Origin: a virus
Virus record (IMG/VR): IMGVR_UViG_3300009162_000018
Span: 1 to 27,207 of that record
Reading direction: 5' to 3' (one strand)
DNA: 27,207 bases
Shown here: piece after piece, positions 5,538 to 24,585 of the stretch
Position numbering within the stretch: the first letter of the stretch is position 1
Layout: each line of letters starts with the position of its first letter
The notes under the pieces: model-generated
Seen by the model: the letters and a program-made list of their open reading frames with translations, nothing else
What the model was told of the DNA's origin: nothing
The model's database searches: none
Program-made: the position numbers and the translations under genes

Positions 5538-5863
5538 TACTCCTCCCGAATCTTGAGCCGGACGTGGTCGATCTTCCCCCCTAATGCTTTTCCCACCATC
5601 ACCTCGACCACTATGCCCTTCAACCCATCTAACAAGGTCAAGCGATCCTGTTCACCAGGCATCGGGGATGTGCTCGCCTCGAACCACAACGTCGCCGAGG
5701 TCCTGACCTCACTTCCGTTCCCCAGCTTGACCATCATATCTTCCCGCACCGTCCGCGCCTGCACGTTCACCGCAGTGGCGTAGGTTGGTTTTCCTTGGCC
5801 ATCCACTCCGGTCAACACCTCAAGGCTTACAGTCTCCAACGACCGCCGAATGACGGTGCTCAT
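5537..5863 (-). CDS. head-closure (stopper) protein (108 aa)
   Basis: This 108-aa protein starts at ATG 5863, overlapping the adaptor stop by 4 nt. It is predicted to be a small beta-barrel: ETVSLEVLTGVDGQGKPTYATAVNVQARTV is followed by a strand-loop region (RTSATLWFEAS), then PGEQDRLTLLDGLKGIVVEV. These fit the head-closure family (SPP1 gp16 / HK97-type stopper), with a central 'PGDxxxL.DG..y.v..v' element. The role is to close the portal channel and dock the tail. The assignment rests on size, order and this pattern; another connector name is possible. Confidence 0.7.
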   Translation of the reverse strand: MSTVIRRSLETVSLEVLTGVDGQGKPTYATAVNVQARTVREDMMVKLGNGSEVRTSATLWFEASTSPMPGEQDRLTLLDGLKGIVVEVMVGKALGGKIDHVRLKIREE

Positions 5864-6258
5864 ACGTCTTCAGCGAATCCCTTCCCGACATTCATGATCG
5901 CCGGGATGATGATCGGCTGCGCCTGAGCGACCGGTTTGGGAGCCAAGAAGTGCTGACGCACCTTCCCACTTGAGTCAAAGGACGCCGCGCGCAAGAGATA
6001 GTCCGTCACGTCTGCGTCCGTCTGATAGCTCTCCGAGACATCCCCGATCGTGCTGCTCTTGAGTCCAAGCTCGCGCAGCTTCGTCAGCGCGCAAGCGAGG
6101 TATCGTTCGATGATCTCCATGCGCTCAGCTGAGAGAGCAGCGCTCGTCAACTCCTCTGTCACCCACAGGTTCGCGTCCGCAATGAACGCGTTGATCTGTG
6201 CGGTCGAGAGGGTGGTATCAAGGATCTCCTTGATCGCCGTTGCCGTCGTGCGTGGCAT
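5860..6258 (-). CDS. head-tail adaptor protein (132 aa)
   Basis: The gene starts with ATG at 6258. It is largely helical: TATAIKEILDTTLSTAQINAFIADANLWV, then SAERMEIIERYLACALTKLRELG, then a SSTIGDVSESYQ loop and a C-terminal tail rich in Pro and Ile. Phage head-tail connector (adaptor) proteins share an N-terminal helix bundle with 'YL.ah' style helix 3 and a later '.d..yq' loop. It is the first gene of the connector series and would bind the portal ring. It is separated from the capsid gene by the paralog pair and the lipoprotein, an unusual spacing. Confidence 0.72.
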   Translation of the reverse strand: MPRTTATAIKEILDTTLSTAQINAFIADANLWVTEELTSAALSAERMEIIERYLACALTKLRELGLKSSTIGDVSESYQTDADVTDYLLRAASFDSSGKVRQHFLAPKPVAQAQPIIIPAIMNVGKGFAEDV

Positions 6259-6259
6259 C

Positions 6260-6766
6260 CTACCTCCGCAAGGAAGTGACGATCAACGAGAACGACACGC
6301 TGTCAGCGGTGGCAATGCCACTCGCAAAGTAGAGCGTGTCCCCGTGCTGCTCGAACTTGGCCGCGAAGCTTGGCGTCAACCACGTCCCAGTGGGATGTGG
6401 ATCGGCCAACGTAAAGGAGGATGGATCACCCACGAGCTGAACCATCCGCGCCGTCACCCGCAAGCCGTTCGGCCAGATCACCGCAGCCCCTGCTACGGTA
6501 GAGTCCTCTGGCCATGCTGATGCATGACCACGGAAGAATCCGATGACATCAGCGGTCGTTCCAGCCGCGAACTTGTCCTCTGGTCCCACCTCGAAGGCGA
6601 TGGTCCCTCGCACCGAGTCCAGCCATTCCGTCCATCCAGGATAGGAGTAGTGATAGCTCCATGCCGAGGAGAGGAAGGTGGCGCTGGTGGGCGTTGGCGG
6701 AGTCACTGGATCGCGACCACAGGCCAACACAAGAAGCATCGCTACGAGCATTCTGCTGTACCGCAT
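6260..6766 (-). CDS. putative phage-encoded lipoprotein (168 aa)
   Basis: I start at ATG 6766 because CGAGGG stands seven bases upstream and the N-terminus is then a complete lipoprotein signal: positively charged MRYSR, hydrophobic MLVAMLLVL, and a VLAC lipobox with Cys16, followed by a Pro/Thr linker (PVTPPTPT). The mature part is about 150 residues, beta-rich, with few charges clustered, containing SAWSYHYSYPGW near the N-terminus. Phage lipoproteins in other systems act in superinfection exclusion by masking the receptor, or as lysis outer-membrane spanins; the size and beta-rich body suit exclusion better. It lies between the paralogous small genes and the adaptor, an odd place for a lipoprotein. 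Function is inference. Confidence 0.65.
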   Translation of the reverse strand: MRYSRMLVAMLLVLACGRDPVTPPTPTSATFLSSAWSYHYSYPGWTEWLDSVRGTIAFEVGPEDKFAAGTTADVIGFFRGHASAWPEDSTVAGAAVIWPNGLRVTARMVQLVGDPSSFTLADPHPTGTWLTPSFAAKFEQHGDTLYFASGIATADSVSFSLIVTSLRR

Positions 6767-6777
6767 TGGGGCCCTCG

Positions 6778-7116
6778 CTATCGTGAGCTGTCGTGCCAGT
6801 TCTCTGGCCCTTCGTAGGCTTGAGGCTCTTCGATGCCAAGGAGACGCTTCGCCAAATCGGCGTGCCGTCCCGTCGGATGCAACTTGATGTACAGTTCCGG
6901 CCGCATCGTGATCGGCCACTCCTTGGGGAGCGGCGGCGGAGGAGGCACAACCGGACCCACGACATGATCCTTGGGGTCAGGGGTGTCTCCCACGTAGACG
7001 AGCTTGTACTCAAGCTGTCGGATCTCAAGCGGAGAAGGCTCGAACACCGATCCCGGAGGCACGATGCTTCCGTCCGATCGATGATGTGGAGCCCCGATGT
7101 TGCGGTAGTAGCTCAT
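6778..7116 (-). CDS. hypothetical protein, paralog B of a tandem pair (112 aa)
   Basis: ATG at 7116 overlaps the TGA of the upstream paralog (ATGA). The protein opens with MSYYRNIGAP and carries a conserved C-terminal block IKLHPTGRHADLAKRLLGIEE at residues 72-92. The upstream gene has the same block (SRYPKGRHADLAKQLL) and a similar N-terminal YRN.G.P, so these two genes are diverged duplicates. The middle has a run of six prolines. No metal site, signal or membrane segment is seen. It lies between capsid and connectors, where a small capsid-associated or connector-assisting protein could fit. I do not recognise the family. Confidence 0.7.
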   Translation of the reverse strand: MSYYRNIGAPHHRSDGSIVPPGSVFEPSPLEIRQLEYKLVYVGDTPDPKDHVVGPVVPPPPPLPKEWPITMRPELYIKLHPTGRHADLAKRLLGIEEPQAYEGPENWHDSSR

Positions 7117-7454
7117 GCCGCGACCTCCTCAGTGAGGAGCTGCTTGGCCAAATCTGCGTGACGTCCCTTGGGATACCGGGATAGGTAAAGGCGAGGCGAG
7201 ATCTTGAGCGGCCACTCAGGAGTATTGGGCTGACCGTCAGTCCCTGCATCCCCTTCAGCACCGAGAGGCTTGGGTTCTTGGGTGTCCTCCCGCAGCCAGA
7301 TCAACCGAACACGAAGTTCTGGATCAGACTGGATATGGACATGCTCTCGGGGCGTCACCTCGACGAGGCCCCCATGGGGCACCACCTGAGCCGAAGCCGC
7401 AGGTGCGCGCCGCCATGGAAGGCCATCGTTTCGGTACATCAACTTCTCAGGCAT
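7113..7454 (-). CDS. hypothetical protein, paralog A of a tandem pair (113 aa)
   Basis: I choose ATG 7454 (MPEKLMYRNDG) because it falls just after the capsid gene stop (7463) and because the longer reading back to 7580 lies inside the capsid gene. The product shares with its downstream neighbour the N-terminal YRN.G.P and the C-terminal PRLYLSRYPKGRHADLAKQLL. The central part (EVTPREHVHIQSDPELRVRLIWL) has strands and charged residues. Both copies are intact and coupled by a 4-nt overlap, so both are likely expressed with the capsid gene. The role is unknown. Confidence 0.72.
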   Translation of the reverse strand: MPEKLMYRNDGLPWRRAPAASAQVVPHGGLVEVTPREHVHIQSDPELRVRLIWLREDTQEPKPLGAEGDAGTDGQPNTPEWPLKISPRLYLSRYPKGRHADLAKQLLTEEVAA

Positions 7455-7462
7455 CAGCTGTC

Positions 7463-8476
7463 CTAGATGAGCAACACGATGCCGTTGATCGTTGCGCCAG
7501 CCGAGGTCTGGATGGACTTGATCTGCGGCCCACCGACCATGATCACACGGAACAGCTGGACGAACGGGTTCTTCTCCCACTGGACGGTCGTGACATCCTG
7601 AGCCAGCGTCAGGTCGATCACGTCTTCCGTCATCTGCACCAGCACGGCCGTATCGTTCGGCAGCGCGTCCAAGGGACGAACGGCCGCGATGTCCGGGAAG
7701 GCGAGAATCCGCTCCAGGAACGTCCGGTCACCCTTGCTCGTGCTGTAGTCTTGCTGCAGGGGAGCCCAGTAATCCTTCGAGACGTACAGGAAGAACGGCC
7801 CGAAGAGGTTGCTGTTGTACCCCGTGGTCAACATCTTGATGACGTCCCCGACGATGTCCGGCGAGGAACCATCCCACACCGCAGACGCACCTGAGATCGT
7901 CAAGCGATTCGGTGCATTCACGATGCCCGGAATGCTCTGACCATCGGTGCCGTTGGTGGGATTGCTGCCCGGCCCACCCGTGAACCCGTTGGCGCAGAGA
8001 TCCTGAAGCTTGTCCCGCACCTTCCGCGCGGCGATGGCAGCCGCTGAAACATCCAGCGGGTCCCCCCGACGGCCAGAGGCGTCCAGCTGCCTCCAGTTGA
8101 ATTGGAAGTCCTTCGCGATCACCGGAACAGGAATCACGTCACGCAAGAAAGCCGGACGGTCGCCAGTCGGCGCCGTGTCTCCATCGAAGGAGACCTCGGC
8201 CGCATCCATGTCAGACACGCGCTCGGTCACCCGAAGCAGAGTGCCCAACGAGACGGGCGTGACCAAGCCCCGGCCCCGAAGGTCATCCACCACAGTCAAC
8301 CGTTCACGCATCACGTCATTGACGCGGGTGTCGATCTGCTCCCACTCGTCCTTCCGAAGCGTGGCGTTCCCGGCCATACTGCGGACTTCGTTCGTCCCCA
8401 GTACAGGCCGCAGTTGCGAGAGATCCGTGATACCCATACGAAGGATCTCGTCCGCCCCAATCAGCTCGTAACCCAT
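7463..8476 (-). CDS. major capsid protein, encapsulin-like HK97 fold (337 aa)
   Basis: ATG at 8476 has a strong GAGGAGGGAAGG ribosome site. It is placed right after a decoration gene. Residues about 100-160 (LRDVIPVPVIAKDFQFNWRQLDASG followed by GDPLDVSAAAIAARKVRDKLQD) and the 240-330 region (YVSKDYWAPLQQDY, LERILAFPDIAAVRPL, EDVIDLTLAQDVTTVQWEKN, FRVIMVGGPQIKS) resemble the encapsulin/Linocin M18 family and the related phage capsid group. This pattern covers the P-domain, spine helix and A-domain. It assembles the icosahedral shell. An N-terminal processing region of about 90 residues precedes the fold; it may be cleaved by the upstream protease, but the site is not evident. An encapsulin compartment is ruled out by the tailed-phage neighbours. 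Confidence 0.85.
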   Translation of the reverse strand: MGYELIGADEILRMGITDLSQLRPVLGTNEVRSMAGNATLRKDEWEQIDTRVNDVMRERLTVVDDLRGRGLVTPVSLGTLLRVTERVSDMDAAEVSFDGDTAPTGDRPAFLRDVIPVPVIAKDFQFNWRQLDASGRRGDPLDVSAAAIAARKVRDKLQDLCANGFTGGPGSNPTNGTDGQSIPGIVNAPNRLTISGASAVWDGSSPDIVGDVIKMLTTGYNSNLFGPFFLYVSKDYWAPLQQDYSTSKGDRTFLERILAFPDIAAVRPLDALPNDTAVLVQMTEDVIDLTLAQDVTTVQWEKNPFVQLFRVIMVGGPQIKSIQTSAGATINGIVLLI

Positions 8477-8515
8477 GTGCCCTTCCCTCCTCAGTTGTTG
8501 ATGAGCGCCACGCTA

Positions 8516-8938
8516 CTAGACGATCTCGATGCGGCAGCGCTTCGGTGAGCCACCACCCGTGACCGCCTCCAACGCGATCCCGACGTGCGTCCCTTCCACC
8601 GGGGTGGACGCGACCTGCAGCGTCCCGTTCCCGTTGCTCTCCAAGAAGTCGCCGATGGCAGCCGACTCCCCCGTGCCCAGCAGCGCATAGACTTCAGCGC
8701 CGGGAGCAAAGACACCATACTGGACCGTGTCGTTGGCGTCGTACGCATCGTCAACGCCTTGCCCGATCAGGTCATTCTCCAGCGCGAAGGCCCTCTGGGC
8801 CGCCGTGCCGAGTCCTGCATGGACCCGAAGCTTCCCGGTGCTCATGATCTCCACCAGGTGACCCGGGGTGATAGCCGCGTTCGCCAGACGTTCCTTACGC
8901 TCGAAGCGGCCTTTCAGTGCAATCGTGTTCTTCGCCAC
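8516..8938 (-). CDS. capsid decoration / cement protein (140 aa)
   Basis: This starts with GTG at 8938 behind AGGAGG. It sits directly upstream of the major capsid gene, the usual place for decoration proteins. The sequence has AITPGHLVEIMSTGKLRVH, YGVFAPGAEVYALLGTGESAAIGDFLESNGNGTL and GIALEAVTGGG elements, a beta-barrel pattern shared with DUF2190-like capsid stabilising proteins (GD.LE...DG.L...). It would bind capsid three-fold or quasi-three-fold sites and stabilise the shell. It contains no obvious sugar site. Family-level confidence is good; details of oligomer are not readable from sequence. Confidence 0.8.
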   Translation of the reverse strand: MAKNTIALKGRFERKERLANAAITPGHLVEIMSTGKLRVHAGLGTAAQRAFALENDLIGQGVDDAYDANDTVQYGVFAPGAEVYALLGTGESAAIGDFLESNGNGTLQVASTPVEGTHVGIALEAVTGGGSPKRCRIEIV

Positions 8939-8976
8939 AGCTCATGCCCTCCTGATGATTGGTACTGAAACCCCAA

Positions 8977-9008
8977 GGGGGTGCGGGCACTAGTTCCCGC
9001 TGACCCCC
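8977..9008 (-). promoter_or_regulatory. strong stem-loop between scaffold/protease and decoration genes
   Basis: The arms are GGGGGT (8977-8982) with ACCCCC (9003-9008) and GCGGG (8983-8987) with CCCGC (8996-9000), an 8-base loop and a 2-nt bulge: 11 paired bases. On the minus strand the stem is followed by TTGGGGTTT, a weak T-rich tail. It lies in an 80-bp gap, large for this window, so it may be a partial terminator, attenuator or RNA processing site that sets capsid gene expression above that of the protease. No experiment is implied. Confidence 0.45.
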
Positions 9009-9018
9009 ACCGCCTCGA

Positions 9019-10719
9019 CTACTTCTCAGCCGGCTTGTTGTAGTACGACACCGGCTTCATGTACCGCGTCTCCGGCTGCGTCCCCTGAGGACCACCCTTG
9101 CCAGCGTAGTTCTCAGTGGCGACCATGTTCGCGATCTTCCGCAGCTCGTCGACGGGCTTGGACTCCAGCTCGGCGGCGGTAAAGGTCACGCGAGGATTGC
9201 CAGCCAGCTCATGCACGAGGGCCGTCCGTTCCCGCTCCCTCTCCTCGACCGCGGGAGCCGTCAGACGCTCCACGTTGCCGACCTTGTCGGTCAGCGCCGT
9301 GATCGCCCGCTTCAGCCCCGCAACCGTGGCATCCCCCGCCTCCAGCTGCTGCACCTTCTCGTTCAACGAGCTGACCGTACGGGTCAACTCCGCAATGGCC
9401 GACAGAATCTCGGCCTGGCCCTGCGTTTCGCTGCCAGCCATGTTGACTTCCTCCGTGTGTTGAGTCGGCTCCACCACTTCCGGTGGAGCTGGGTCCGTGT
9501 TCGCCGCCGTCGCGCCCACGGGTACATACGTCGTCATCCGCCGCACAAGCGCCGGTTCGGCGAACGTCATCTTACCGTTCTCAGACATCGTGTACTCTGA
9601 ACGGTAATACTCTGCGCCCTTGGGCTGAGCACCCATAGGGGTACTGAACCAAAAGACTACGTAGTGCTGATCGCTGTAGAGATCGCAAACGATCACCTCA
9701 CGATCCGAGGCACCAAACTTTTCCTGCATCGCCTCGCGGACCATCTGCATCCGCTCTTGATCACTCGGCATCAGTTCCTGGAGCGCCATCATCTCGCGCG
9801 CCATGTTGTGCGAGGCCATCTCCTCGTAGGTCATCTTCTCCGAGTGGGCCTCCGCCACCGCGAACAGCGCGGCTGCACGTTCAAAGATTTTCTTGATCAA
9901 GGACGGAGTCTCCTCTGCGGTTGGTGTTACATCCGTCGGCTGCGCCTGTGTAGACACAATGTCCTCCTGATGATTGCCCCGGCATGGACATTGAGCATTG
10001 ACCCCAAGTCCACAGCCATCATGCACTGAACACGCTCCAGTCATCTCGGTCGAGATCACGAGATGATCTGCGCCGAGGGGGTGCAGCACGTATTCATACA
10101 ACTCCCCTCCCGCGTTCCCTGCTTGCTGTTCCGGGATGGTGGAGAATCCAGTCGAGAGTTCGACAGGGTGGCCGGCGTCCACGGCGGCGAGTACGTCCGA
10201 GAACCCTGGCACGACCGACGCGCGCTCAACGTCCAGCCACACTTCTGCCGAAAGACGGGCGACCCCATCTGGTCCCTCATCCGCATGCGCGCCAAAGATC
10301 CATCCCACACACCGCTCGTTCATGATCTCCGGAGTCCGGCCGCTCATCGGCTCCCCAGCGTGCGTCGGATGCGGTCCCACGAGAACCGGGATGTTGTTCC
10401 ACATCTCGGCCCAGTCACGGTTGATCGCTTCAGCGGGAAGGTAGGTCCGACCCAGATTGTTCTGGAGCACTTGAGCACGAACGAGGACAGCAGGGACGAT
10501 GCGGAACGCGCGACCCATCCAAGTAACTCGCCGCGCCACACTCGACGAGGCAGCGCGAAGGATCAGGAAGTGCGTGGCCTCTTGATGCGCGCGCGTGTAG
10601 GTGCTACTGCAGAACGCGTACCGCTGCTCGGAGTCAGGGAAGCTACGGTTCGCTTCACCGTCCCCCATGCACCGACTCACGAATGCTTCGCGTCCTTCCC
10701 CACTGCGCGGTCTCGGCAT
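9019..10719 (-). CDS. prohead protease with scaffold region (DUF2213-like, 566 aa)
   Basis: I start at ATG 10719 (MPRPRSGEGREAF), since this begins a short Cys-containing domain (residues 1-50) often placed before phage proteases, and the longer frame back to 10833 crosses a strong stem-loop. The protease domain, about 70-240, has the DUF2213 signs: VLVGPHPT with probable catalytic His117, the strand GWIFGAHADEGPDG, and PVELSTGFST with probable Ser189. A HPLGADHLVISTEMTGACSV segment follows. The C-terminal half is acidic and helical, with a heptad-like coiled coil at about 440-500, typical of a fused scaffold. It would mature the capsid and be degraded itself. It is separated from the portal by about 15 kb, which is unusual. 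Confidence 0.85.
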   Translation of the reverse strand: MPRPRSGEGREAFVSRCMGDGEANRSFPDSEQRYAFCSSTYTRAHQEATHFLILRAASSSVARRVTWMGRAFRIVPAVLVRAQVLQNNLGRTYLPAEAINRDWAEMWNNIPVLVGPHPTHAGEPMSGRTPEIMNERCVGWIFGAHADEGPDGVARLSAEVWLDVERASVVPGFSDVLAAVDAGHPVELSTGFSTIPEQQAGNAGGELYEYVLHPLGADHLVISTEMTGACSVHDGCGLGVNAQCPCRGNHQEDIVSTQAQPTDVTPTAEETPSLIKKIFERAAALFAVAEAHSEKMTYEEMASHNMAREMMALQELMPSDQERMQMVREAMQEKFGASDREVIVCDLYSDQHYVVFWFSTPMGAQPKGAEYYRSEYTMSENGKMTFAEPALVRRMTTYVPVGATAANTDPAPPEVVEPTQHTEEVNMAGSETQGQAEILSAIAELTRTVSSLNEKVQQLEAGDATVAGLKRAITALTDKVGNVERLTAPAVEERERERTALVHELAGNPRVTFTAAELESKPVDELRKIANMVATENYAGKGGPQGTQPETRYMKPVSYYNKPAEK

Positions 10720-10741
10720 CCACTGACCCCCATAACGAAGA

Positions 10742-10774
10742 CACCCCCGGAGATCTCTGTGATCTCCGAGGGTG
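10742..10774 (-). promoter_or_regulatory. long stem-loop upstream of the protease gene
   Basis: Arms 10742-10755 and 10761-10774 pair with a single mismatch (13 of 14 positions) around a TCTGT/ACAGA loop. Transcribed on the minus strand it is followed by TCTTCGTT, then the protease start region. It lies in the longest non-coding gap in the window (about 118 bp). It may be a terminator for the glycan block with some read-through, or a leader structure that protects or controls the capsid mRNA. Confidence 0.5.
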
Positions 10775-10831
10775 AGCTTGACGGTGGCAGCCACTCGGCT
10801 GGGGACCGTCTGCAAGGCCCTATGGTGAAGC

Positions 10832-10860
10832 AATATACTATCGTGCGGGTATTGTGCTAC
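10832..10860 (-). promoter_or_regulatory. possible sigma70-type promoter for the capsid module
   Basis: On the minus strand a TATATT (10837..10832; 5 of 6 to TATAAT) is spaced 17 nt from GTAGCA (10860..10855; 3 of 6 to TTGACA). The stretch is AT-rich in a GC-rich window and stands at the end of the MAF-like gene, just before the largest gap and the stem-loop. The weak -35 makes this a low-confidence call. Confidence 0.25.
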
Positions 10861-11476
10861 CCCCTAGCCATTCTGTAGTAGGCTCGCCAAACAGCTCTCT
10901 GGTCTTCCCAGACATGGACCTTACGTTGTCCCCAAAGCGTTCCCTGCATTGTCCCCACGCCCTCCAATGGGCGTTGGCTGCCACCCAGACCACGTGGAAG
11001 CTCTCTTTCGTCTCCGCAAAATGCGGGGTCTGTGTCATGGGAATCCCCATCAACACGACTCGGGTACATCCAAGCTCCAGTGCGACTTGCGCCGCGAACA
11101 TCCCGCTTGATCCACCACCCCAGGCCGAGAGGCGGTAGTCCGGAAACTGATCGTCGGGCTTGCAGCCCCAGGTCACGTAGCCGTCCTCGAAGCCTTGTTC
11201 TTTCCGCAAGGCAATCCACTTCTCGAACTTGTAGGCGTGAAGGGAGACCCAGTGATCGAGGTCCCGCGGCCAGTGGCATCCGATGTCGTTGGCCGCGATC
11301 ACCAGTCCATCCCACGGCTTTCCGTAGATCTTCTCGAAGGCGAGGATGTCCTCCCACACGCAGTACGCCCCACCCAAACACAGCGCCCATTCAGGGTGGA
11401 GACAGGAGAGACGTCGCGTCTTGTGGTCTTTGATCCACGTCAAATCTGAGAACGCGTTGACGTAAGGCTTGGTCAC
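10838..11476 (-). CDS. MAF/DUF115-like Rossmann-fold protein, possible glycan enzyme (212 aa)
   Basis: It starts with GTG at 11476 (GTGA overlap with the 80-aa gene). The core motif is GGGSSGMFAAQVALELGCTR followed by VVLMGIPM, a Gly-rich loop, helix, strand and 'GxD/P-M' pattern found in DUF115/motility-accessory-factor-like and sialyltransferase-type proteins, which bind nucleotide sugars. Earlier residues include AANDIGCHWPRDLDHWVSLH, resembling the 'N...hp..D.wvs.h' element of this fold. It is the last gene of the glycan block. The most likely role is sugar transfer or sugar-nucleotide handling; catalytic residues cannot be set without alignment. Confidence 0.6.
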   Translation of the reverse strand: MTKPYVNAFSDLTWIKDHKTRRLSCLHPEWALCLGGAYCVWEDILAFEKIYGKPWDGLVIAANDIGCHWPRDLDHWVSLHAYKFEKWIALRKEQGFEDGYVTWGCKPDDQFPDYRLSAWGGGSSGMFAAQVALELGCTRVVLMGIPMTQTPHFAETKESFHVVWVAANAHWRAWGQCRERFGDNVRSMSGKTRELFGEPTTEWLGGSTIPAR

Positions 11477-11715
11477 TCTTTTGAATCTCCTGCAAGCACT
11501 TTGGCCACATCCTTCGCGGCCTCGCTGGACAGCATCACGATGCGCTGTGTTCCATCCATGATCGTCTGTCCCTGATCGTCCGCGTCAGAGAAGATCAAGA
11601 CGTACCGTGCCACACTCTCCTCGACCTGATCAAGCGGATACAGCCACCGCTCTACCGCGAAGACGATGCCTGGTCCACGGTATCGCGTGAGGACAGTTCG
11701 GATGGGCTTGGCCAT
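11473..11715 (-). CDS. small hypothetical protein in glycan block (80 aa)
   Basis: ATG 11715 overlaps the TGA of the membrane gene upstream (ATGA), so the longer reading to 11787 is rejected. The product begins AKPIRTVLTRYRGPGIVFAV and has strands (ARYVLIFSDADD) then a helix with a charged end (SSEAAKDVAKVLAGD). It looks like a compact alpha/beta protein. No known motif is seen. Coupled on both sides, it is probably translated with its neighbours. Confidence 0.6.
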   Translation of the reverse strand: MAKPIRTVLTRYRGPGIVFAVERWLYPLDQVEESVARYVLIFSDADDQGQTIMDGTQRIVMLSSEAAKDVAKVLAGDSKE

Positions 11716-12026
11716 CAGAACAGCACGATCGCAAGCACACCCATCGCGGTCAAGATTCCGACCTCGCGCTGCGCCAGATCTTTCCACTCCAGCCCGTTCG
11801 GGTCAAACCATCCCTCGTACAGTAGGGAGAGCCCATGCGTCCAGACGCCGCCCACCACGAAGAAGCCGAGATCGAGCGGCATCGGAATGACGATACTGAC
11901 GACCCAGAGAAGTCCGTAGCCCAACGCCGCTGTAAGCCATCCGCTCACGAACTCAACGCCCCACGATGGGATCTTGGCCAACAGGCGCTGAGCCCAAGAT
12001 GGGAGCCACTGCCACCAGTTCACCAT
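11715..12026 (-). CDS. small membrane protein (103 aa)
   Basis: The product starts with a Trp-rich amphipathic helix (VNWWQWLPSWAQRLLAKIPSW) and then has hydrophobic segments at about residues 28-49 (WLTAALGYGLLWVVSIVI), 53-70 and 88-103 (VGILTAMGVLAIVLF), so two to three membrane passes. The neighbours are sugar and methyl-transfer genes, so a membrane anchor or flippase-like helper is possible. A holin is an alternative from size and topology, but no endolysin is next to it. It is unidentified. Confidence 0.6.
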   Translation of the reverse strand: MVNWWQWLPSWAQRLLAKIPSWGVEFVSGWLTAALGYGLLWVVSIVIPMPLDLGFFVVGGVWTHGLSLLYEGWFDPNGLEWKDLAQREVGILTAMGVLAIVLF

Positions 12027-12034
12027 GAGACCCC

Positions 12035-12634
12035 CTACTGTGTGGTGATGAGGAGACTACCGCGCAGTCCGTCATGCACGAACTCGGCGGTCCAGCTTGG
12101 GTTCTGTGTCAGGACCTCGTCGCATGCTTCCCGTATGTCCTTCCCAACACCGTAGTCGTCAACCAATATCCACTTTGCCACGCTGCACAACTTCAGGTCG
12201 TGGAAGCAACCCTCGAAGCTGTGGTCCGCGTCCACGTGCGCCATCGTGGTCTCCCACGACCACGGGGTCATCGCAAATCGTTCAAGCTTCTGAATGTCGT
12301 GCGCCAAGAACGAGACATGCGCGAACCGCTTCAGGATCTTGTGTGCGTGCGCGATGTATTGATCACCCTGCTCCGCGTCGCACATCCCGTTGTCGATTCC
12401 AAGATAGTACGCCTCGGGCACTGCCGAGAGGAACGCGAAGGCGGAGTATCCAGCACGGACCCCAAGCTCCACGATGTGGGTGGGCTTCAACCGCGCGGCT
12501 GTCTCATACTTCATCTCGTAGTAGTGGAGCGAGAGATCATCGACCACGAACTCATCCCCTGGATACCAGTTGTCTACCAGAGCATGAATCCACGGATCGC
12601 CCCCGATCACCCGCTCCCCTCTCCACCGTGTCAT
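12035..12634 (-). CDS. class I SAM-dependent methyltransferase (Methyltransf_24 type, 199 aa)
   Basis: I start at ATG 12634, which overlaps the TGA of the membrane gene (ATGA); the longer frame to 12697 lies within it. Motif I is HIVELGVRAGYSAFAFL (about residues 53-70), followed by YYLGIDNG, where Asp ends strand 2 and binds the SAM ribose. The later AHVDADHSFEGCFHDL matches the 'DgdHsYegv..Dl' signature of Methyltransf_24, which often acts on sugars or small O-linked groups. A cytoplasmic enzyme is expected. Substrate is unknown; sugar O-methylation in the adjacent glycan pathway is the leading idea. Confidence 0.82.
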   Translation of the reverse strand: MTRWRGERVIGGDPWIHALVDNWYPGDEFVVDDLSLHYYEMKYETAARLKPTHIVELGVRAGYSAFAFLSAVPEAYYLGIDNGMCDAEQGDQYIAHAHKILKRFAHVSFLAHDIQKLERFAMTPWSWETTMAHVDADHSFEGCFHDLKLCSVAKWILVDDYGVGKDIREACDEVLTQNPSWTAEFVHDGLRGSLLITTQ

Positions 12635-13179
12635 CGTGGCCGCTGTCCCAACACGATCGCCCGCATGTGCTCCGCTTGCTGGAAGACAATGAGCCACATG
12701 ATAGCAAAGATCGGCTGCCCAGCCCCGATGAGTCCCAACCAGCCTGATGCGCCAATGTTCTCCAGCGTGGTGAATCCGAGGACTCGCGAGTTGAACAGGT
12801 CCGCGAACAGGGGACGCCCGTGGAAGATGTTGTCGGTGAGGTTATGCTCGATGTGCAGCGTGATCTGAAGCCACACGATGGCGAAGGCGGGGATGCCCAC
12901 CCCAAAGATGTCGAACTGATAGAACGGCCACAGGAACAACCACACCAACCAGAGCCCGGTCTCGAGCAGCGCGTTGACCGCGATCCTTCCGTAGGGAATG
13001 CCCCTGAGATTGAACAGGCTGTCGTGGTTCTTCACGTTGTCCGCGATCACGTGCTCCACGAAAAAGCCGATCGGAAGGAGGGCCCCACCCAAGAATGCTC
13101 GTCCAGCACGGACCAGCGCTAACCACGCGATCAGCGCTGCATCCTCGACCAGCGTGAATACCAGTACCCGTACGAACAT
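12631..13179 (-). CDS. multi-pass membrane protein with three Glu-His repeats (182 aa)
   Basis: I prefer ATG 13179, which has AAAGGAGG four bases upstream; ATG 13200 overlaps the previous stop and is the alternative. Five or so hydrophobic segments are seen: about residues 5-24, 28-43, 66-87, 92-109, 143-165. Three ends carry a Glu-His pair (E42-H43, E111-H112, E170-H171), and the first two continue as EHVIADN and EHNLTDN. Each pair follows a helix rich in I/V/L/F/W, so the protein seems to be a tandem internal duplication. The conserved acidic-His pairs at membrane ends could bind metal or be catalytic. I do not recognise a family; the glycan block suggests a membrane step in sugar handling. 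Confidence 0.68.
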   Translation of the reverse strand: MFVRVLVFTLVEDAALIAWLALVRAGRAFLGGALLPIGFFVEHVIADNVKNHDSLFNLRGIPYGRIAVNALLETGLWLVWLFLWPFYQFDIFGVGIPAFAIVWLQITLHIEHNLTDNIFHGRPLFADLFNSRVLGFTTLENIGASGWLGLIGAGQPIFAIMWLIVFQQAEHMRAIVLGQRPR

Positions 13180-13196
13180 TCTGCCTCCTTTGAGAA

Positions 13197-14783
13197 TCAT
13201 CGTCCCATCACCTTGCGTGCCTGATCGACCACGATCTCAGCGGTAAGCCCAGCCGTGTCCAAGGCGACGTAGGGAGAATCAGGCGGAGCCGTGTTCGTCC
13301 ACATCGCACTCTTGAAGTACCGATTCCACACCAAGGCCGTCGGGATGTTGAGCACGGGGCCGAGGAGGGTGTTCCCAGCTGGCCAGCCGTACACCAACGA
13401 CGCCCCCAAGATAGCCCCCAACATCTGGTCGAAGCTTGTCTGCGCGATCAGGTTAACCCAGTCGGAGTTGCTCTGCGCACGGTAGGCCATCTGATCACCG
13501 AGCGAGTTCTTGTCCCACTCCGCGCCGATCATCACGATGCGGAGCCCAAGCTCCGTGTTGAGCTTGACACACGAGGTCCAGATGCCCTCCGGACCGAACT
13601 CGTTGAGCCAGTTCGTGTACATCCCGCTCAACGTGAAGAAGCACACTGCGTAGGGTCCACCAGCCTCCAGCTTGGCCTGAAACTCCTGCGCCTCCTTGGA
13701 GACGTGAATCTTCGGGTACCAGTCGCACCCGTACTGTGGATCGACCTCGGCAAGGCTCTTGCCTGCTCTCAGGATCCCGTTGTAGGCGATGAAGTAGTCC
13801 ACCCCCAACACCCCAGGGAAGACCGTCCGTCCGTCCGTCATGTAGGCTTCGTGAAAGATCCGATCGCGGTGCGAGACCTTGTAGCCTGCTGAGTGGACGA
13901 AGGAGACCGTCTTGAGAAACGGCTCAGTTCGCTTGGGCCCCATGTCCTGCACCCAGAGGTCGGGCATCTCCAACCCGTGCGCTTTCAGGAACCCCGGGAG
14001 CTTCACCAGTACCCAGTAAGAGTCCCCGATGCCTGCTGGGACGAGGATCTGCGGGCGGGTCTGCTGCATCGCTTCCGCAACCATCACGATCTTCGACTCG
14101 ATCGGATGGTCCCAATGAGTCACGAGAAATCCGGCCTGCCGCAGCAGATGATTGAGCTGCTGCTCATCCAAACACCAGAGGTGCTCCACCGGCTTCCAGT
14201 GGTGGCGGCCGGACTCGTGCCAGAAGCGAGGAAAGTCCACGATCAGTTTCCCACCCGGCTTGAGGATGCGACGGATCTCCTTCAGCATGGCGATCGGATC
14301 CGGGATGTGTTCCAGCACATCATGAATCGTGATCACGTCGAAGTCGTCGGTAGGAAAGGCCACCTCCGCCAACGCCTCAGCATAGATCCGTGGGCCATCA
14401 CTCTGTTGAGCAAGATCCTGACCCCACGCGTCGAGCTTTCCGTGTGTCACCGCGGCGTTGACGAACGCCCCGTTTCCTGCTCCAACGTCAAGGAGCTTGA
14501 TGCCTTCCGGGAGTTTGTAGGCTGCAAGGCGCTTGAGCGCAACCTCGTAGTCGTGGTCATAGGTATGCTGGTAGATCCCGTCCCTCGCTCGGCTTGACAT
14601 CTTGGCTGGCTGCGGGAAGTAGACCTCTCGATACCACTCAGCCAGCTGCACCTCTGTCATGCGTACCTCTTGTCGCACGATCGAGCACTTGTGACACCGG
14701 AGCACCGGGATGCCGAACTGGCTGTCCGCAAGACCACCTGAAGCACCGCATACGCAGTTCGGTAACAGCTGTTCCGTCGTCAC
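13197..14783 (-). CDS. methyltransferase fused to a GT9-like glycosyltransferase (528 aa)
   Basis: It starts with GTG 14783 (GTGA overlap). Residues 10-33 hold four cysteines (CVCG ... CHKC), a probable zinc ribbon. Residues 60-240 form a class I methyltransferase: motif I LLDVGAGNGAF (about 97-107), an acidic strand end at FDVITIHDVLEHIP, then ILKPGGKLIVDFPRF, the typical Methyltransf_11/23 order. From about 260 the second domain begins QILVPAGIGDSYWVLVKLPG, the 'GIGD' loop of GT9 heptosyltransferase-like enzymes, and ends with ILGASLVYGWPAGNTLLGPV and LNIPTALVWN, a nucleotide-sugar binding style segment. It would transfer and methylate sugars in one chain. Acceptor and donor are unknown. 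Confidence 0.8.
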   Translation of the reverse strand: MTTEQLLPNCVCGASGGLADSQFGIPVLRCHKCSIVRQEVRMTEVQLAEWYREVYFPQPAKMSSRARDGIYQHTYDHDYEVALKRLAAYKLPEGIKLLDVGAGNGAFVNAAVTHGKLDAWGQDLAQQSDGPRIYAEALAEVAFPTDDFDVITIHDVLEHIPDPIAMLKEIRRILKPGGKLIVDFPRFWHESGRHHWKPVEHLWCLDEQQLNHLLRQAGFLVTHWDHPIESKIVMVAEAMQQTRPQILVPAGIGDSYWVLVKLPGFLKAHGLEMPDLWVQDMGPKRTEPFLKTVSFVHSAGYKVSHRDRIFHEAYMTDGRTVFPGVLGVDYFIAYNGILRAGKSLAEVDPQYGCDWYPKIHVSKEAQEFQAKLEAGGPYAVCFFTLSGMYTNWLNEFGPEGIWTSCVKLNTELGLRIVMIGAEWDKNSLGDQMAYRAQSNSDWVNLIAQTSFDQMLGAILGASLVYGWPAGNTLLGPVLNIPTALVWNRYFKSAMWTNTAPPDSPYVALDTAGLTAEIVVDQARKVMGR

Positions 14784-15034
14784 ACAATTCTCCGGGTTGA
14801 GGCGTACTCACCAAAGGCCACACCAGCCACCGTCCAGATCAGTCCCCACCATCCGATGTCGATCAACAACAAGACCGAAGCTCCCCCCAACAACGCGTGG
14901 AAGGCTCCAAGCTCCACCACGCGTTTCCGCCCGATGCCTGTCTGTCTCCACGTGTCCCGTGCGTCCAGATACCGTCCCGCATAGTAGGTGATCGCGGCAT
15001 CAGAGAGAAAGAGCGCGAGTCCGAGAAAGATCAT
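14780..15034 (-). CDS. small membrane protein (84 aa)
   Basis: The ATG at 15034 and the stop at 14780 are both in 4-nt overlaps. Hydrophobic segments are at residues 1-18 (IFLGLALFLSDAAITYYAG) and 47-75 (LLGGASVLLLIDIGWWGLIWTVAGVAFG), separated by a charged stretch (RDTWRQTGIGRKR). A two- or three-pass membrane protein is likely. It lies between the GT8-like and MT-GT9 genes. A lipid-linked sugar or anchoring role is only a guess. Confidence 0.6.
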   Translation of the reverse strand: MIFLGLALFLSDAAITYYAGRYLDARDTWRQTGIGRKRVVELGAFHALLGGASVLLLIDIGWWGLIWTVAGVAFGEYASTRRIV

Positions 15035-15162
15035 CGCTCGATCTTGATCGGGAAGGAGGCGCGAAAATTGATGTGCGGGACAAGGATCACATATTCGATC
15101 ACAGTGCGTTCAGCAAGCCAGATCCTCATGGCGTCGATCTGCACCGGTCGTGGTATGATCAT
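15031..15162 (-). CDS. very small hypothetical protein (43 aa)
   Basis: ATG at 15162 overlaps the TGA of the glycosyltransferase gene (15159..15161), and its TGA overlaps the next ATG (15031..15034). This exact double coupling is strong support for a gene despite its length. The longer frame starting at 15447 is a shadow within the glycosyltransferase gene. The protein reads IIPRPVQIDAMRIWLAERT and continues with strands (VIEYVILVPHINF). No function can be assigned. Confidence 0.5.
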   Translation of the reverse strand: MIIPRPVQIDAMRIWLAERTVIEYVILVPHINFRASFPIKIER

Positions 15163-15803
15163 CGCCGAAGCCACTCCGCGTAGGCCCAGCCACACTCCTT
15201 GTTGTTCGGCTTGGGGTAGCCATGGAAGCATACGACCCGTGCATTGGTCGGCATCCCGAGGCGGGCATGGACCTTGTAGCTGACGATCTGCTCCGGGAAG
15301 AGATCCTGCAGGCGATTGACGTGCTCCGGATACTGCGTGGAGAGGGAGTCGATCACGTTTCCATCTCCGTGATAGTTCCGCATCCAGTAGTCCGGCTGTC
15401 GAACCCAGTTGTCCCAGATCCATGCGCTCTGGGGGCCGGGGGTCCACATCATCATCCCAGACTGACCGTTGTAGGGACGATAGAAGTCTGAGAGGAGTGC
15501 GAGCGGATCACCACTGTAGCTTGCGATCTCGGTCAGGTCTCCGACGATCAACGTGTCGAGATCAAGGTAGAGCACGGGACCATTGAACAACCCAGGACGA
15601 AACAGCTCCATCTTGGCCCACCATCCTGGCCACCGGTGATCGAGCTTGTTGCCCCACGGACCGAAGCAGTCGAGATCGGAGAGCACACGAAACTCCCACT
15701 GGATTTCCAGTGGGAGATGGCGATGCAGCCCACGCTTGAGCGCCCAGACCCATTCTGGGGCGTAGACCCCGCCGGAGCGCAGTACGCAGGCGATCGTGAT
15801 CAT
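15159..15803 (-). CDS. GT8-like glycosyltransferase (214 aa)
   Basis: ATG 15803 overlaps the TGA of the BppU-like gene. The protein has the layout of retaining GT-A enzymes: an N-terminal strand MITIACVLRSGG, then a loop DLDCFGPWGNKLDHRWPGWWAKMELFR, then GPVLYLDLDTLIVGDL at about residues 75-90 with the DLD metal-binding motif, a YNGQSGMMMWTPG acceptor-site region, and a late HGYPKPNN with the conserved C-terminal His. It is a single catalytic domain with no membrane segment, so it is cytoplasmic and uses a UDP- or GDP-sugar. It is the first gene of the glycan block, directly behind the fibre genes. Confidence 0.85.
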   Translation of the reverse strand: MITIACVLRSGGVYAPEWVWALKRGLHRHLPLEIQWEFRVLSDLDCFGPWGNKLDHRWPGWWAKMELFRPGLFNGPVLYLDLDTLIVGDLTEIASYSGDPLALLSDFYRPYNGQSGMMMWTPGPQSAWIWDNWVRQPDYWMRNYHGDGNVIDSLSTQYPEHVNRLQDLFPEQIVSYKVHARLGMPTNARVVCFHGYPKPNNKECGWAYAEWLRR

Positions 15804-16135
15804 GCGGAGGTAGAGAGGCGTTCCTCAACCACGATCGTCACATAGCCGTCGGTCGGTACACGATAGGGTCCTCCTACGAGACCTGAGACCTTGAACTCAC
15901 CCTCATAGGTACCCGCCGCGATCTCGGTGTCCCCCGAGATCCAGTTGTACCCGATCTTCCCTAATGGTCCGTTCACCACCACCCCCGCCGCTGCCTGGAC
16001 CGGACGATAGGAGGTGTTTCGCGCGGCACGCATCGTGAACAGGATGGTCGCGCCAGTAGTGTTCACTACGTTCCCGTTCTCGTCCTTCACGATGGCTTCT
16101 ACGTCCGGGAAGAGATCTCCACGTTTGACGATCAT
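15800..16135 (-). CDS. BppU N-terminal-like fibre/baseplate partner (111 aa)
   Basis: ATG at 16135 comes 2 bp after the fibre stop. The protein is beta-rich: RGDLFPDVEAIVKDENGNVVN, TGATILFTMRAA, GKIGYNWISGDTEIAAGTYEGEF and a last strand GYVTIVVEERL. This pattern (polar start 'xGDxxPxLxxxLxDxxGxxxxLxGxxxxFxM' and 'Y.w...Dt...G.Y...f.v') is typical of the N-terminal Ig-like domain of phage baseplate upper proteins (BppU/DUF2479). It is most likely an adaptor that links a fibre to the virion, consistent with its location right after the fibre gene. Confidence 0.7.
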   Translation of the reverse strand: MIVKRGDLFPDVEAIVKDENGNVVNTTGATILFTMRAARNTSYRPVQAAAGVVVNGPLGKIGYNWISGDTEIAAGTYEGEFKVSGLVGGPYRVPTDGYVTIVVEERLSTSA

Positions 16136-16137
16136 CT

Positions 16138-18378
16138 CTACTCCTCGTCCAAGGTTCTGGCCTGACCCACATCAGCTGCACTCCGCTTCGTCGATGAATC
16201 TGTCGCTGATCGTCCTTGTCCCACATCGGTTACTCTTCGGATCAACGATGAGTCCACCGCTGATCGTCCTTGTCCCACATCCGTCACGCTAAGGTTTCTT
16301 GGGATAGCCTGCGTCCCAAGCGTTGGTGTCGCAACCGTGAAGACCGCTGTCACCGCGAACGGAGAGATAATCCGTGCGCCCTTGATCAAAACCGGAGCAG
16401 GCACCGAGAAGGTAACTACTACCGCCGCTGGTGTCGCACGGAATACCTTGATTACGGTTGGCGTGCCAACAGTGAACGTGGCTCCCACTGCACCCGGGGT
16501 GAGGGTTCTGACCCCCGCAATGTGGGGGAGAGGAACACTGAAGGATACGGTCGTGGCTGCCGGCGTCAGCGTTCTTGTCCCCTTGATCAACGTCGGAGTC
16601 AAGACGCTGAACGCGGCAGTCACCGCACTTGGATTCACCGTCTTTCCTGCGAACACCAATGGCGTGGCGACGGTGAAGCTCACCACCGCCGCGGTTGGTG
16701 TGAGCGTTCGCGTTCCCTTGATAAGGGTCGGAACTCTCGCCGTGAACACGACAGTAACAGCTGATGGGGTGAGGGTTCTCGTGCCCTTCACCACCGTGGG
16801 CGTAGCCACCGAGAACACTGCGGTGACCGCACTGGGTGTCAGTGTCCGTGTCCCCTTCACCACCGTGGGCGTAGCCACCGTGAAAGCCACCGTGACCGCA
16901 TTCGGGGTGACCTTTCCTCCCGTTACTACTGATGGCGTTGCTACGGTGAAAGCAACAGTCACAGCCGAAGGCTTGAGGACCCGATTGAGCTTTGGCGCCA
17001 GTACGCTGAAAGAGACCGTGACCGCATTGGGTGTGATCAACTTCGCGTTGGTGACAAACGGCGTCACCACTGTAAAGGCTACAGTGGTCGCTGATGGCGT
17101 CAGGGTCCTTGTGCCTTTTACTACTGTTGGTGTCGCCACTGAGAAGGCGACAGTCACGGCCGACGGTGTGAGAGTGCGAACGCCCTTCACTACCGTTGGA
17201 GTAGCAGCACTGAAGGCTACCGTCACAGCCGAGGGTGTGAGAGTGCGAACACCCTTCACCACCGTTGGAGTAGCGACACTGAAGGCTACCGTCACCGCTG
17301 CCGGTGTCAGTGTCCTTGTTCCCTTCACCACCGTCGGCGTCTGTGCAGTAAAGGCCACTGTGACCGCACTGGGTGTTAGCGTACGGTTCTTTATCACCGT
17401 GGGTGTCGCAACGGTAAATGCAACAGTCACTGCCGTCGGGGTGAGGGTCTTCACACCCTTCACTACCGTCGGAGTCAATACTGAGAAAGCAACAGTAACA
17501 GCGGTCGGTGTCAATACTGTTGAAGCAGTAACCGCGCCAATGTTCGCCGGTTGGTCCCACCGTCGGTCAAGGAGTCTCTGCGGTGCAGCTCCCATCGGAC
17601 CAAAGCGCATCCCTGGCGTTGGCCGCGTCCGCTTGGGAGCGGGACCAATACCACCAGCGCTCCTGCGTGGAGAGGAGTAGTGATAGCTCCGTCCTGGATC
17701 TTCCCCGATGCCAGCCGATGGATCAGGAGCCTGTTGGATCGCGATCGCCCATGCTGACCAATCATCCGAGACCGAGATGGTCCATGACCCAGGGTCTTCA
17801 GAAGAGGCTGCAGTCAGCTGCCGGGAGGCAGCGGCGCAGCGACAGTTGGTCGTGACGGCCCCTGCCACCGCACTGTCGGATCCGATCGGATTGGAGTAGT
17901 TTGTGGGTTGACTTGCTGGTGGAGAAGTCTGCTCACCTTCCCATGATCCATACCACAACACCAGCGCATCCTTGGGACCACCAGAGATCGTGACCGACGT
18001 CGGATCAGGAGTCGCAGAGGTTGCTGTTGCGATCGTCGAGATGTTGGGTGTAAGCCCGATGTGTCCGCCCGTCACCCGATGCGAGAGGGACGAGTATTTC
18101 AATGAGGCGGTACCGTTGACAGTGACGGAGGTGCCTTCACCACCGTCCGCTACCTTCCAGAAGATGGAGACGGTATCATCCGACGCGTCAGCGGTGTTGT
18201 TCTTAACAAGATCAGACCACCCTGATGGGGTGGTGTGCGTGTCCGCTCCGGCTGACCTGATGATGAGCACAAGGATGTCTCCCGCCGCGATACTTGACGG
18301 GAGAACACAGGCCTTGTTCGTCGCCGCTGACGAGCCTGCAGTAGTAGTAGCTCGCCCAGCGTCTACAGGAGCAGCCAC
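16138..18378 (-). CDS. repeat fibre/adhesin (746 aa)
   Basis: The gene starts with GTG 18378. It has four parts. Residues 1-215 form a jelly-roll-like domain (AAGDILVLIIRSAGADTHTTPSGW, DTVSIFWKVADGGEG, YSSLSHRVTGGH, KDALVLWYGSWEG, WSAWAIAIQQA), a pattern seen in phage surface domains. Residues 216-283 are a Pro/Arg/Gly linker. Residues 284-691 have 18 tandem repeats of 22-23 aa with consensus LTPSAVTVAFTVATPTVVKG. Residues 692-746 hold almost three 18-aa repeats (VTDVGQGRSATDSS). The long repeat area is beta-strand and Thr/Ser/Val-rich with almost no acidic residues, so a long fibrous shaft is expected. Likely a host-binding fibre or head/tail decoration. Its neighbour adaptor and glycan genes support surface exposure. 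Confidence 0.8.
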   Translation of the reverse strand: MAAPVDAGRATTTAGSSAATNKACVLPSSIAAGDILVLIIRSAGADTHTTPSGWSDLVKNNTADASDDTVSIFWKVADGGEGTSVTVNGTASLKYSSLSHRVTGGHIGLTPNISTIATATSATPDPTSVTISGGPKDALVLWYGSWEGEQTSPPASQPTNYSNPIGSDSAVAGAVTTNCRCAAASRQLTAASSEDPGSWTISVSDDWSAWAIAIQQAPDPSAGIGEDPGRSYHYSSPRRSAGGIGPAPKRTRPTPGMRFGPMGAAPQRLLDRRWDQPANIGAVTASTVLTPTAVTVAFSVLTPTVVKGVKTLTPTAVTVAFTVATPTVIKNRTLTPSAVTVAFTAQTPTVVKGTRTLTPAAVTVAFSVATPTVVKGVRTLTPSAVTVAFSAATPTVVKGVRTLTPSAVTVAFSVATPTVVKGTRTLTPSATTVAFTVVTPFVTNAKLITPNAVTVSFSVLAPKLNRVLKPSAVTVAFTVATPSVVTGGKVTPNAVTVAFTVATPTVVKGTRTLTPSAVTAVFSVATPTVVKGTRTLTPSAVTVVFTARVPTLIKGTRTLTPTAAVVSFTVATPLVFAGKTVNPSAVTAAFSVLTPTLIKGTRTLTPAATTVSFSVPLPHIAGVRTLTPGAVGATFTVGTPTVIKVFRATPAAVVVTFSVPAPVLIKGARIISPFAVTAVFTVATPTLGTQAIPRNLSVTDVGQGRSAVDSSLIRRVTDVGQGRSATDSSTKRSAADVGQARTLDEE
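16141..16290 (-). repeat. 54-bp repeats coding the fibre C-terminus
   Basis: Almost three 18-residue units end the fibre. A 24-nt segment at 16204-16227 recurs exactly at 16258-16281, 54 bp away. The unit core is VTDVGQGRS; the last copy is shortened (ADVGQARTLDEE). It is distinct from the Thr-rich shaft repeats in composition (Asp, Arg, Gln). Confidence 0.85.
16306..17529 (-). repeat. 18 tandem in-frame repeats of about 69 bp coding the fibre shaft
   Basis: Eighteen units of 22-23 codons are arranged head to tail. Several are nearly identical in DNA: a 28-nt stretch at 16783-16810 recurs at 16852-16879, and units at about 17160-17300 match over most of their length with 69-bp spacing. Others have diverged to protein-level similarity. 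This suggests recent growth by slippage or unequal recombination in part of the array. Confidence 0.9.
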
Positions 18379-18387
18379 GTCGAGATC

Positions 18388-19230
18388 CTAGTTCAGCGCT
18401 TCGATGATGCGCTGTTGACAGGTCAAGTTCGTCGGACTGGTGGCGACCGAGAACTGTGCCGTCACGCTCAAGAGTTTGTCCACCGTGGTGTCTACGGTCA
18501 CCGCTGCGTTACCAGATGCAATCGGAGCCCCAGCAGACCCAAGCATGGACACCAGATTGTTGAACGCACCGTTATTGCTGATGCCCACCGACGCGAGCAC
18601 GTTGACTGCAGCTGCCATACCGCCGCTCATGAACGTGCCGGTCGCCCCCACTGTCCGGCACACGATGTAGGCTGTGAGATTCCACAACGCATTGGTCCGT
18701 GCGGCCGTGTCCAATCCGATCGCGGCACTCGCCAAGAGTACCACCCCACCGACGCCACCCCACCGTACCCGAAGGGTCAAGGTACCCGGAGTCGTGACCA
18801 CGTTGGAGTTGACCCCAAAGGCCCACAGGCGCAAAATCCGTCCCGGATACATCCAATAGCGCGGGATGTTGAAGTCAGGGCAGACGATAGTCTCACTGGT
18901 GGTGTTGCTGATCTGCGTGCCATCCACGACGATCCCGTCCAGCGTCTCGACCCAATCCTGTGACCCTCCCAACGTCTGATACTTGAGGGGTCGATCGGGC
19001 TGCTGCTGCCGGGCTGCCAAGAGCATGGCCAAGGTGCGATCAACATCTGATCGCTTCTTCCCGCGGACCACATCCTTCATCGCCCGCGTCCGTGCTTGCA
19101 GGCGGCGCATGAGTTGCGGCACATGACGCACCGCATCGTCGGCTGGAACCAACATCCCGTCCACCTCAAAGTATTTCTTGCCGCGAAACGTAACCGTCTC
19201 GCCGCTCCAACAGTCTAGGATCTTGCCCAT
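18388..19230 (-). CDS. phage virion structural protein (280 aa)
   Basis: I choose ATG 19230, which has GAGGAG about nine bases upstream; the longer frame to 19437 lies in the upstream gene. The N-terminal part (residues 1-100) is charged, with a GKKYFEVDGMLVPADDAVR segment and basic helices. The C-terminal 160 residues are beta-rich: ILRLWAFGVNSNVVTTPGTL, RVRWGGVGGVVLLASAA, NLTAYIVCRTVGATGTFMSG, VTVDTTVDKLLSVTAQFSVA, closing with TCQQRIIEALN. This strand pattern is shared by a broad group of phage head-fibre, spike and surface proteins. Probable surface subunit. The exact virion location is not readable. Confidence 0.75.
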   Translation of the reverse strand: MGKILDCWSGETVTFRGKKYFEVDGMLVPADDAVRHVPQLMRRLQARTRAMKDVVRGKKRSDVDRTLAMLLAARQQQPDRPLKYQTLGGSQDWVETLDGIVVDGTQISNTTSETIVCPDFNIPRYWMYPGRILRLWAFGVNSNVVTTPGTLTLRVRWGGVGGVVLLASAAIGLDTAARTNALWNLTAYIVCRTVGATGTFMSGGMAAAVNVLASVGISNNGAFNNLVSMLGSAGAPIASGNAAVTVDTTVDKLLSVTAQFSVATSPTNLTCQQRIIEALN

Positions 19231-24545: not shown

Positions 24546-24585
24546 TGTCGTCCTTCTGGCACGAACCGTCGCGAGTCCGATCAAG

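Follow-up and report, generated by a model that had tools for sequence, protein, structure and literature searches.

Gene Organization of the Island

The window analyzed here, a stretch of 27,207 bases that makes up a whole IMG/VR record, is a genome fragment of a tailed phage. The genes considered are all encoded on the minus strand, in the order portal, MuF, several small genes, a repeat fibre, a 111-aa "BppU-like" gene, the island, a head protease, a decoration protein, the major capsid protein, tail genes, the tape measure, and Dit. The island (10838–15803) comprises nine coupled genes, bounded by the 111-aa gene and the head protease (table 1). An earlier note on this DNA had placed there a GT8 enzyme, a methyltransferase (MT)-GT9 fusion, a second methyltransferase, a Maf-like protein, three membrane proteins, and two tiny genes, all coupled and oriented like the virion genes. 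Our analysis bears out this gene content and its coordinates. In transcription order, the genes encode GT8, a 43-aa ORF, a membrane protein, MT-GT9, a membrane protein, the second methyltransferase, a membrane protein, an 80-aa ORF, and the Maf-like protein. The coupling is likewise confirmed: of the nine junctions between the 111-aa gene and the Maf-like gene, eight are overlaps of 1–4 nt and one is an 8-nt gap. The Maf-like gene is separated from the likely protease start (10719) by 118 nt, including a 14-bp hairpin, which is a possible attenuator or partial terminator. A promoter scan of positions 8400–18500 returned no sigma-70-like site, a result that says little by itself.

The island had also been said to begin right after the BppU-like and fibre genes. 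The position stands and the label does not, as the 111-aa protein gave no BppU family match in Pfam and PHROG searches. An actinobacteriophage setting found no support either. Among annotated phages we found no DNA-level relative of the window, and the nearest annotated relatives of its portal are the halovirus Hardycor1 and Brevundimonas phages. Nothing links the phage to actinobacteria, and we reject an actinophage origin.

The MuF head protein (951 aa, window positions 21954–24809) carries a C-terminal Zeta_toxin-like kinase domain (residues 512–688, E = 5.5e-23). MuF is much shorter in two related loci, L079 (343 aa) and L174 (363 aa).

Table 1. Coordinates of the island genes and of neighboring features in the window
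Feature	Position	Strand	Remarks
Major capsid protein, candidate glycan acceptor	7463..8476	−	phrog_771, 1.5e-33
Head protease/scaffold-type protein	9019..10719	−	Downstream border of the island; phrog_760, 6e-15; start deduced from homologues and sequence
14-bp hairpin, then T-rich stretch	10742..10774	−	Between island and protease
Maf/GT42 sialyltransferase-like protein, 212 aa	10838..11476	−	Predicted fold
Small ORF, 80 aa	11473..11715	−	No Pfam match
Small membrane protein, 103 aa	11715..12026	−	2–3 hydrophobic segments; no family
Second methyltransferase (Methyltransf_24), about 199 aa	12035..12634	−	Likely start is the ATG overlapping the upstream stop; longest ORF starts at 12697
Membrane protein, 189 aa	12631..13200	−	About 5 hydrophobic segments
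Methyltransferase-GT9 fusion, 528 aa	13197..14783	−	Residues 3–240 sugar C3-methyltransferase-like; 241–528 GT9 (heptosyltransferase) fold
Small membrane protein, 84 aa	14780..15034	−	2–3 hydrophobic segments (hydropathy); no family
Tiny ORF, 43 aa	15031..15162	−	Overlaps both neighbors by 4 nt; read from sequence; no Pfam match
GT8-family glycosyltransferase, 214 aa	15159..15803	−	phrog_1962, E = 3.9e-45; DLD motif at residues 81–83
111-aa "BppU-like" gene	15800..16135	−	Borders the island upstream; L174 has a homologue (54% identity) in this slot
Repeat fibre	16138..18378	−	Context; 26% Ser+Thr by composition; related in L079 (40%), replaced in L094/L174

Enzyme Families Encoded by the Island

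The first enzyme combines profile similarity to GT8 enzymes with a DxD metal-binding motif and belongs to the GT8 family. A profile built from alignment A5 (15 relatives) matched glycogenin-1 (E = 5.8e-6), the Skp1 galactosyltransferase, and the GT8 structure 5gvv (6e-4) in the PDB, most matches being glycogenins. Glycogenins and the Skp1 galactosyltransferase act on proteins. The motif, DLD in the window, is strongly conserved in 120 sequences (D81 94%, L82 98%, D83 100%). No member of the GT8 family set has a Pfam match.

In the MT-GT9 fusion, the N-terminal part matches Methyltransf_23 (Pfam, 6.4e-24), and in the predicted model (pLDDT 77) it resembles the sugar C3-methyltransferases MtmC and TcaB9 (Z 17–19; MtmC 4rv9, Z 19.1). 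Residues 241–528 of the model show the GT-B fold of the GT9 type, with 3tov (Z 19.7), WaaF 1psw (Z 19.6), and 2h1h (Z 17.8) as matches (WaaF and WaaC, Z 17–20). The CxC/CxxC and SAM-motif residues are invariant in alignment A4. At the sequence level, the A2 profile reaches E = 0.0074 against WaaF 1psw and the L055 homologue E = 0.0042 against Pfam GT9, under the cut-off; the protein of the window has no Pfam GT9 match at E ≤ 1, and tblastn found no match to it among annotated phages. The second methyltransferase scores 26.7 bits against Methyltransf_24 (cut-off 26.3) and has homologues in L084 and L094; a single-sequence scan with it returned no match.

The predicted model of the Maf-like protein is of middling confidence (pLDDT 73.5). 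It has the fold of CMP-sugar transferases (GT42/Maf, MptE-like), matching CstII with a Z of 11.9 over 170 aa and Maf 5mu5 with a Z of 11.2. All sequence scores are under the cut-off (MptE-like, E = 0.16; phrog_4603, E = 0.0049; CstII profile, E = 0.95), and the GGGPS motif of many relatives is absent from the protein of the window. A single-sequence scan gave no match, whereas an alignment-based search did find relatives. The predicted structures were built on shallow alignments of 6–7 sequences. We read the fold matches of the island enzymes as family resemblance, not activity.

The three membrane ORFs have a codon-position GC similar to that of known genes nearby. No homologues of these proteins were detected in related cassettes, and the two tiny genes have no detectable relatives. 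Pfam, PHROG, and a single-sequence scan found no relative of the 189-aa membrane protein, which harbors three EH motifs in or near its hydrophobic segments.

Related Cassettes in Other Phages

Scans of IMG/VR identified 75 GT8 loci, at least 137 Maf-like loci by the alignment search (80 kept), and 22 MT-GT9 loci. Bacterial genomes gave one full-length MT-GT9 match, in Thalassobaculum litoreum, on a contig that includes a phage head module (L194). A GT8 and a Maf-like gene are found within 5 kb of each other, on the same strand every time, in 38 of the 75 GT8 loci and 26 of the 80 Maf-like loci, two partly overlapping sets that include related phages and were each retrieved by one of the two members. 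Fusions occur as well: L077 encodes MT, GT9, and Maf-like domains in one 920-aa ORF, and L091 joins a Maf-like domain to a methyltransferase domain in an ORF of 571 aa. Given the L077 fusion and the co-location of GT8 and Maf-like genes on the same strand, GT8, MT-GT9, and the Maf-like protein appear to belong to one pathway. IMG/VR relatives and one Thalassobaculum prophage thus share a modular cassette of GT8, MT-GT9, methyltransferase, and GT42/Maf-like genes.

These cassettes occupy four slots of the head operon. Two loci (L096 and L099) have it between the terminase and portal genes, and in L077 and L084/L092 it lies directly upstream of the portal gene. The second slot, between portal and MuF, is used in L091, and the third, between the BppU-like gene and the protease, in the window and in L094/L174. 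The fourth follows the capsid gene and extends up to or just past the connector (L055, L057, L061, L065, L067–L069, L072, L075, L078, L180, L186, and L194). Among 127 immediate neighbors of Maf-like genes, a family scan found foremost head morphogenesis, portal, scaffold, and protease proteins, with GT8 also among them. Cassette and head genes occur together in 34 records, and each of the 74 cassette genes in these records is oriented like the head genes; the gene calls in metagenome loci are mechanical, and several of the records overlap as duplicates of one contig, so that the 74 cases are not all independent.

Some related cassettes include sulfotransferases and an APS kinase, and others a sugar oxidoreductase/acetyltransferase fusion or a TupA-like ATP-grasp protein. 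These variable extra enzymes look like exchangeable sugar tailoring. Several sulfotransferase-like genes and an APS kinase gene follow the capsid gene in L068, L069, and L072 (assigned by Pfam for L069, by eye for the others). Our search of the literature, of partial coverage and no proof of novelty, turned up no report of sulfotransferases in a virion cassette of a phage.

Other enzymes were seen in single loci or recurrently. An 88-kb phage record carries, between portal and MuF (L091, 7014–9179), genes for a KdsB-like cytidylyltransferase and a KpsF/KdsD-like isomerase, the KpsF/GutQ model scoring over its cut-off and kdsB under. KDO-8-P synthase was looked for in G001 and not found, and G001 therefore encodes just part of the Kdo pathway. 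A radical SAM enzyme recurs in L091 (11923–13092), L061 (13929–14909, both by Pfam), and L096 (4292–5341, by eye). The cassette nearest to that of the window, in L094, contains a PhyH-type dioxygenase gene (7210–7974).

A Putative Virion-Glycosylation Cassette

From its gene content, its coupling, the predicted folds, and the homologous head-operon cassettes, we propose, with a probability of roughly 0.6, that the island serves to glycosylate the virion and is expressed along with the late structural genes. The soluble enzymes would modify virion proteins in the cytoplasm soon after their synthesis, with a head protein as the likeliest acceptor. GT8 would place or extend the first sugar. The MT-GT9 fusion would add a further sugar, possibly heptose-like, and methylate a sugar, and the second methyltransferase might carry out another methylation. 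The Maf/GT42-like enzyme may then use a CMP donor to cap the chain with an acidic sugar. Kdo is one candidate for this cap, by analogy with L091, the only locus pointing to it. The particle would thereby acquire a coat of small methylated glycans. In this scheme, the enzyme activities, the order of the steps, the sugars, and the acceptor are the parts that we infer.

The proposal agrees with the matches of the GT8 profile, mainly to glycogenins and also to the Skp1 galactosyltransferase, as these enzymes act on proteins. The earlier note had offered two explanations, modification of Thr/Ser-rich fibre or capsid proteins and modification of host surface sugars. The former is favored, since all 74 cassette genes follow the strand of the head genes, the neighbors of Maf-like genes are mainly head genes, and Cluster O mycobacteriophages have the same layout; the Thr/Ser-rich fibre as target is weakened. 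Some observations weigh against a virion target. A cytosolic pathway leaves the three membrane proteins without an evident role, GT8 is just 33% identical to its counterpart in L174, the Maf-like model is of middling confidence, and the Maf-like protein lacks GGGPS.

The membrane proteins would find a place in the main rival explanation, in which the cassette acts on the host envelope, be it the LPS core or a different surface glycan, during late infection or lysogeny. Receptors would thereby be hidden from superinfecting phages, or the progeny kept from re-adsorbing to debris. Synthesis of the LPS core typically involves GT8, GT9, and Kdo enzymes, G001 has KdsB- and KdsD-like genes, and one relative is a prophage of an alphaproteobacterium, Thalassobaculum. 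However, all the cassettes near head genes are co-directional with them, and the island membrane proteins lack detected homologues in the related cassettes. Gtr seroconversion cassettes consist of a GtrA flippase, GtrB, and a polytopic Gtr protein. GtrA was not found among the island proteins by Pfam, nor in nine related viral records, and a Gtr-type seroconversion is thus not supported. We consider envelope modification rather unlikely.

A glycan placed on the Thr/Ser-rich repeat fibre, just upstream of the island, is a further alternative. This fibre has the highest Ser+Thr content among the genes of the window and is apparently co-transcribed with the island. The comparison with L174, which carries a homologous island in the same slot, points elsewhere. 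Identity between the two is 53% for MT-GT9, 50% for the Maf-like protein, 46% for the second methyltransferase, and 33% for GT8. It is 54% for the protease, 47% for the decoration protein, and 59% for the capsid protein. MT-GT9, the Maf-like protein, and the second methyltransferase therefore diverge in step with the head proteins (46–53% vs. 47–59%), while the fibre has been replaced: that of the window has no match in L174, where the slot is occupied by an unrelated repeat protein with 17% Ser+Thr. As L174 keeps the cassette with an unrelated fibre, the fibre repeats are disfavored as sole target. Conversely, L079 has a 40%-identical fibre followed by a BppU-like gene and then by the protease gene, with no island there, and the 88-kb phage to which this locus belongs has its own cassette elsewhere, between portal and MuF. 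Most cassettes, moreover, adjoin capsid or portal genes. Glycosylation of the fibre is accordingly improbable, and the glycan target is probably the head rather than the fibre. In L079, the fibre homologue is split into two ORFs of 497 and 168 aa (5180–7213), which may be separate genes or the result of a frameshift.

Intracellular host proteins, small molecules, or phage DNA are highly improbable targets, as the enzyme folds match sugar-acting families and the island showed no partner for DNA modification, although the methyltransferases and the radical SAM enzymes of some relatives could take other substrates.

Returning to virion glycosylation, a broader reading can be put forward speculatively, and we consider it unlikely as a whole: a widespread mobile head-operon cassette, found from P1 to uncultured phages, might give virions a coat of glycans that are acidic, methylated, and, in certain lineages, also sulfated, and that are made of LPS-core-type sugars (heptose and Kdo), so that the particles mimic the host surface. 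To our knowledge, virion glycosylation by phage enzymes has so far been described mainly in mycobacteriophages. If our proposal is right, other tailed phages also glycosylate their virions, using a different set of enzymes, and sulfation and CMP-sugar capping of virions are suggested in relatives. It would also give a testable function to pmgO, pmgP, and pmgQ of P1. Glycan coats matter for the recognition of phages by antibodies, for their stability, and for adsorption.

Comparison with Known Systems

Phage P1 encodes homologues of two of the island families (L089, 4144–6702): PmgQ falls in the GT8 family (E = 5.5e-70) and PmgO and PmgP in the Maf-like family (E = 1e-12 and 8e-9, respectively). 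P1 differs in that no MT-GT9 gene was seen among the genes around pmg and the pmg genes lie outside any capsid-gene cluster. They are annotated as having a "putative morphogenetic function" and are non-essential in the laboratory (PMC10695390). P1 therefore offers no known phenotype in support.

The Maf flagellin glycosyltransferases and the GT42 sialyltransferases share the predicted fold of the Maf-like protein of the island, which, in contrast, is a single small domain without significant sequence match to them. The GT9 heptosyltransferases WaaC and WaaF have the fold predicted for residues 241–528 of MT-GT9, the version of the island being fused to a methyltransferase.

A similar setting is that of the Cluster O mycobacteriophages. 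In the two examined, Firecracker and Dylan, an O-methyltransferase and glycosyltransferases are encoded between the portal and the capsid protease, in a head-operon setting like that of the island, and these modification enzymes have been proposed to act on the capsid (PMC4351075). Glycosylated capsid or tail-tube proteins are reported for Che8, Corndog, and Myrna (Freeman et al. 2023, as cited in PMC12363180 and PMC11256854). Phages of the Che8/Corndog type have, in common with the island, methyltransferase and glycosyltransferase genes among the virion genes. Their glycosyltransferases are different: those of Che8 and Cluster O belong to GT2 and GT25, those of the island are GT8, MT-GT9, and Maf-like, and the GT8, Maf-like, and MT-GT9 profiles showed no cross-match with Che8 gp108–110 or Firecracker gp33–36. 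Judged from sequence comparison, the island is not a member of the Che8/Corndog system by glycosyltransferase homology, but would work like it.
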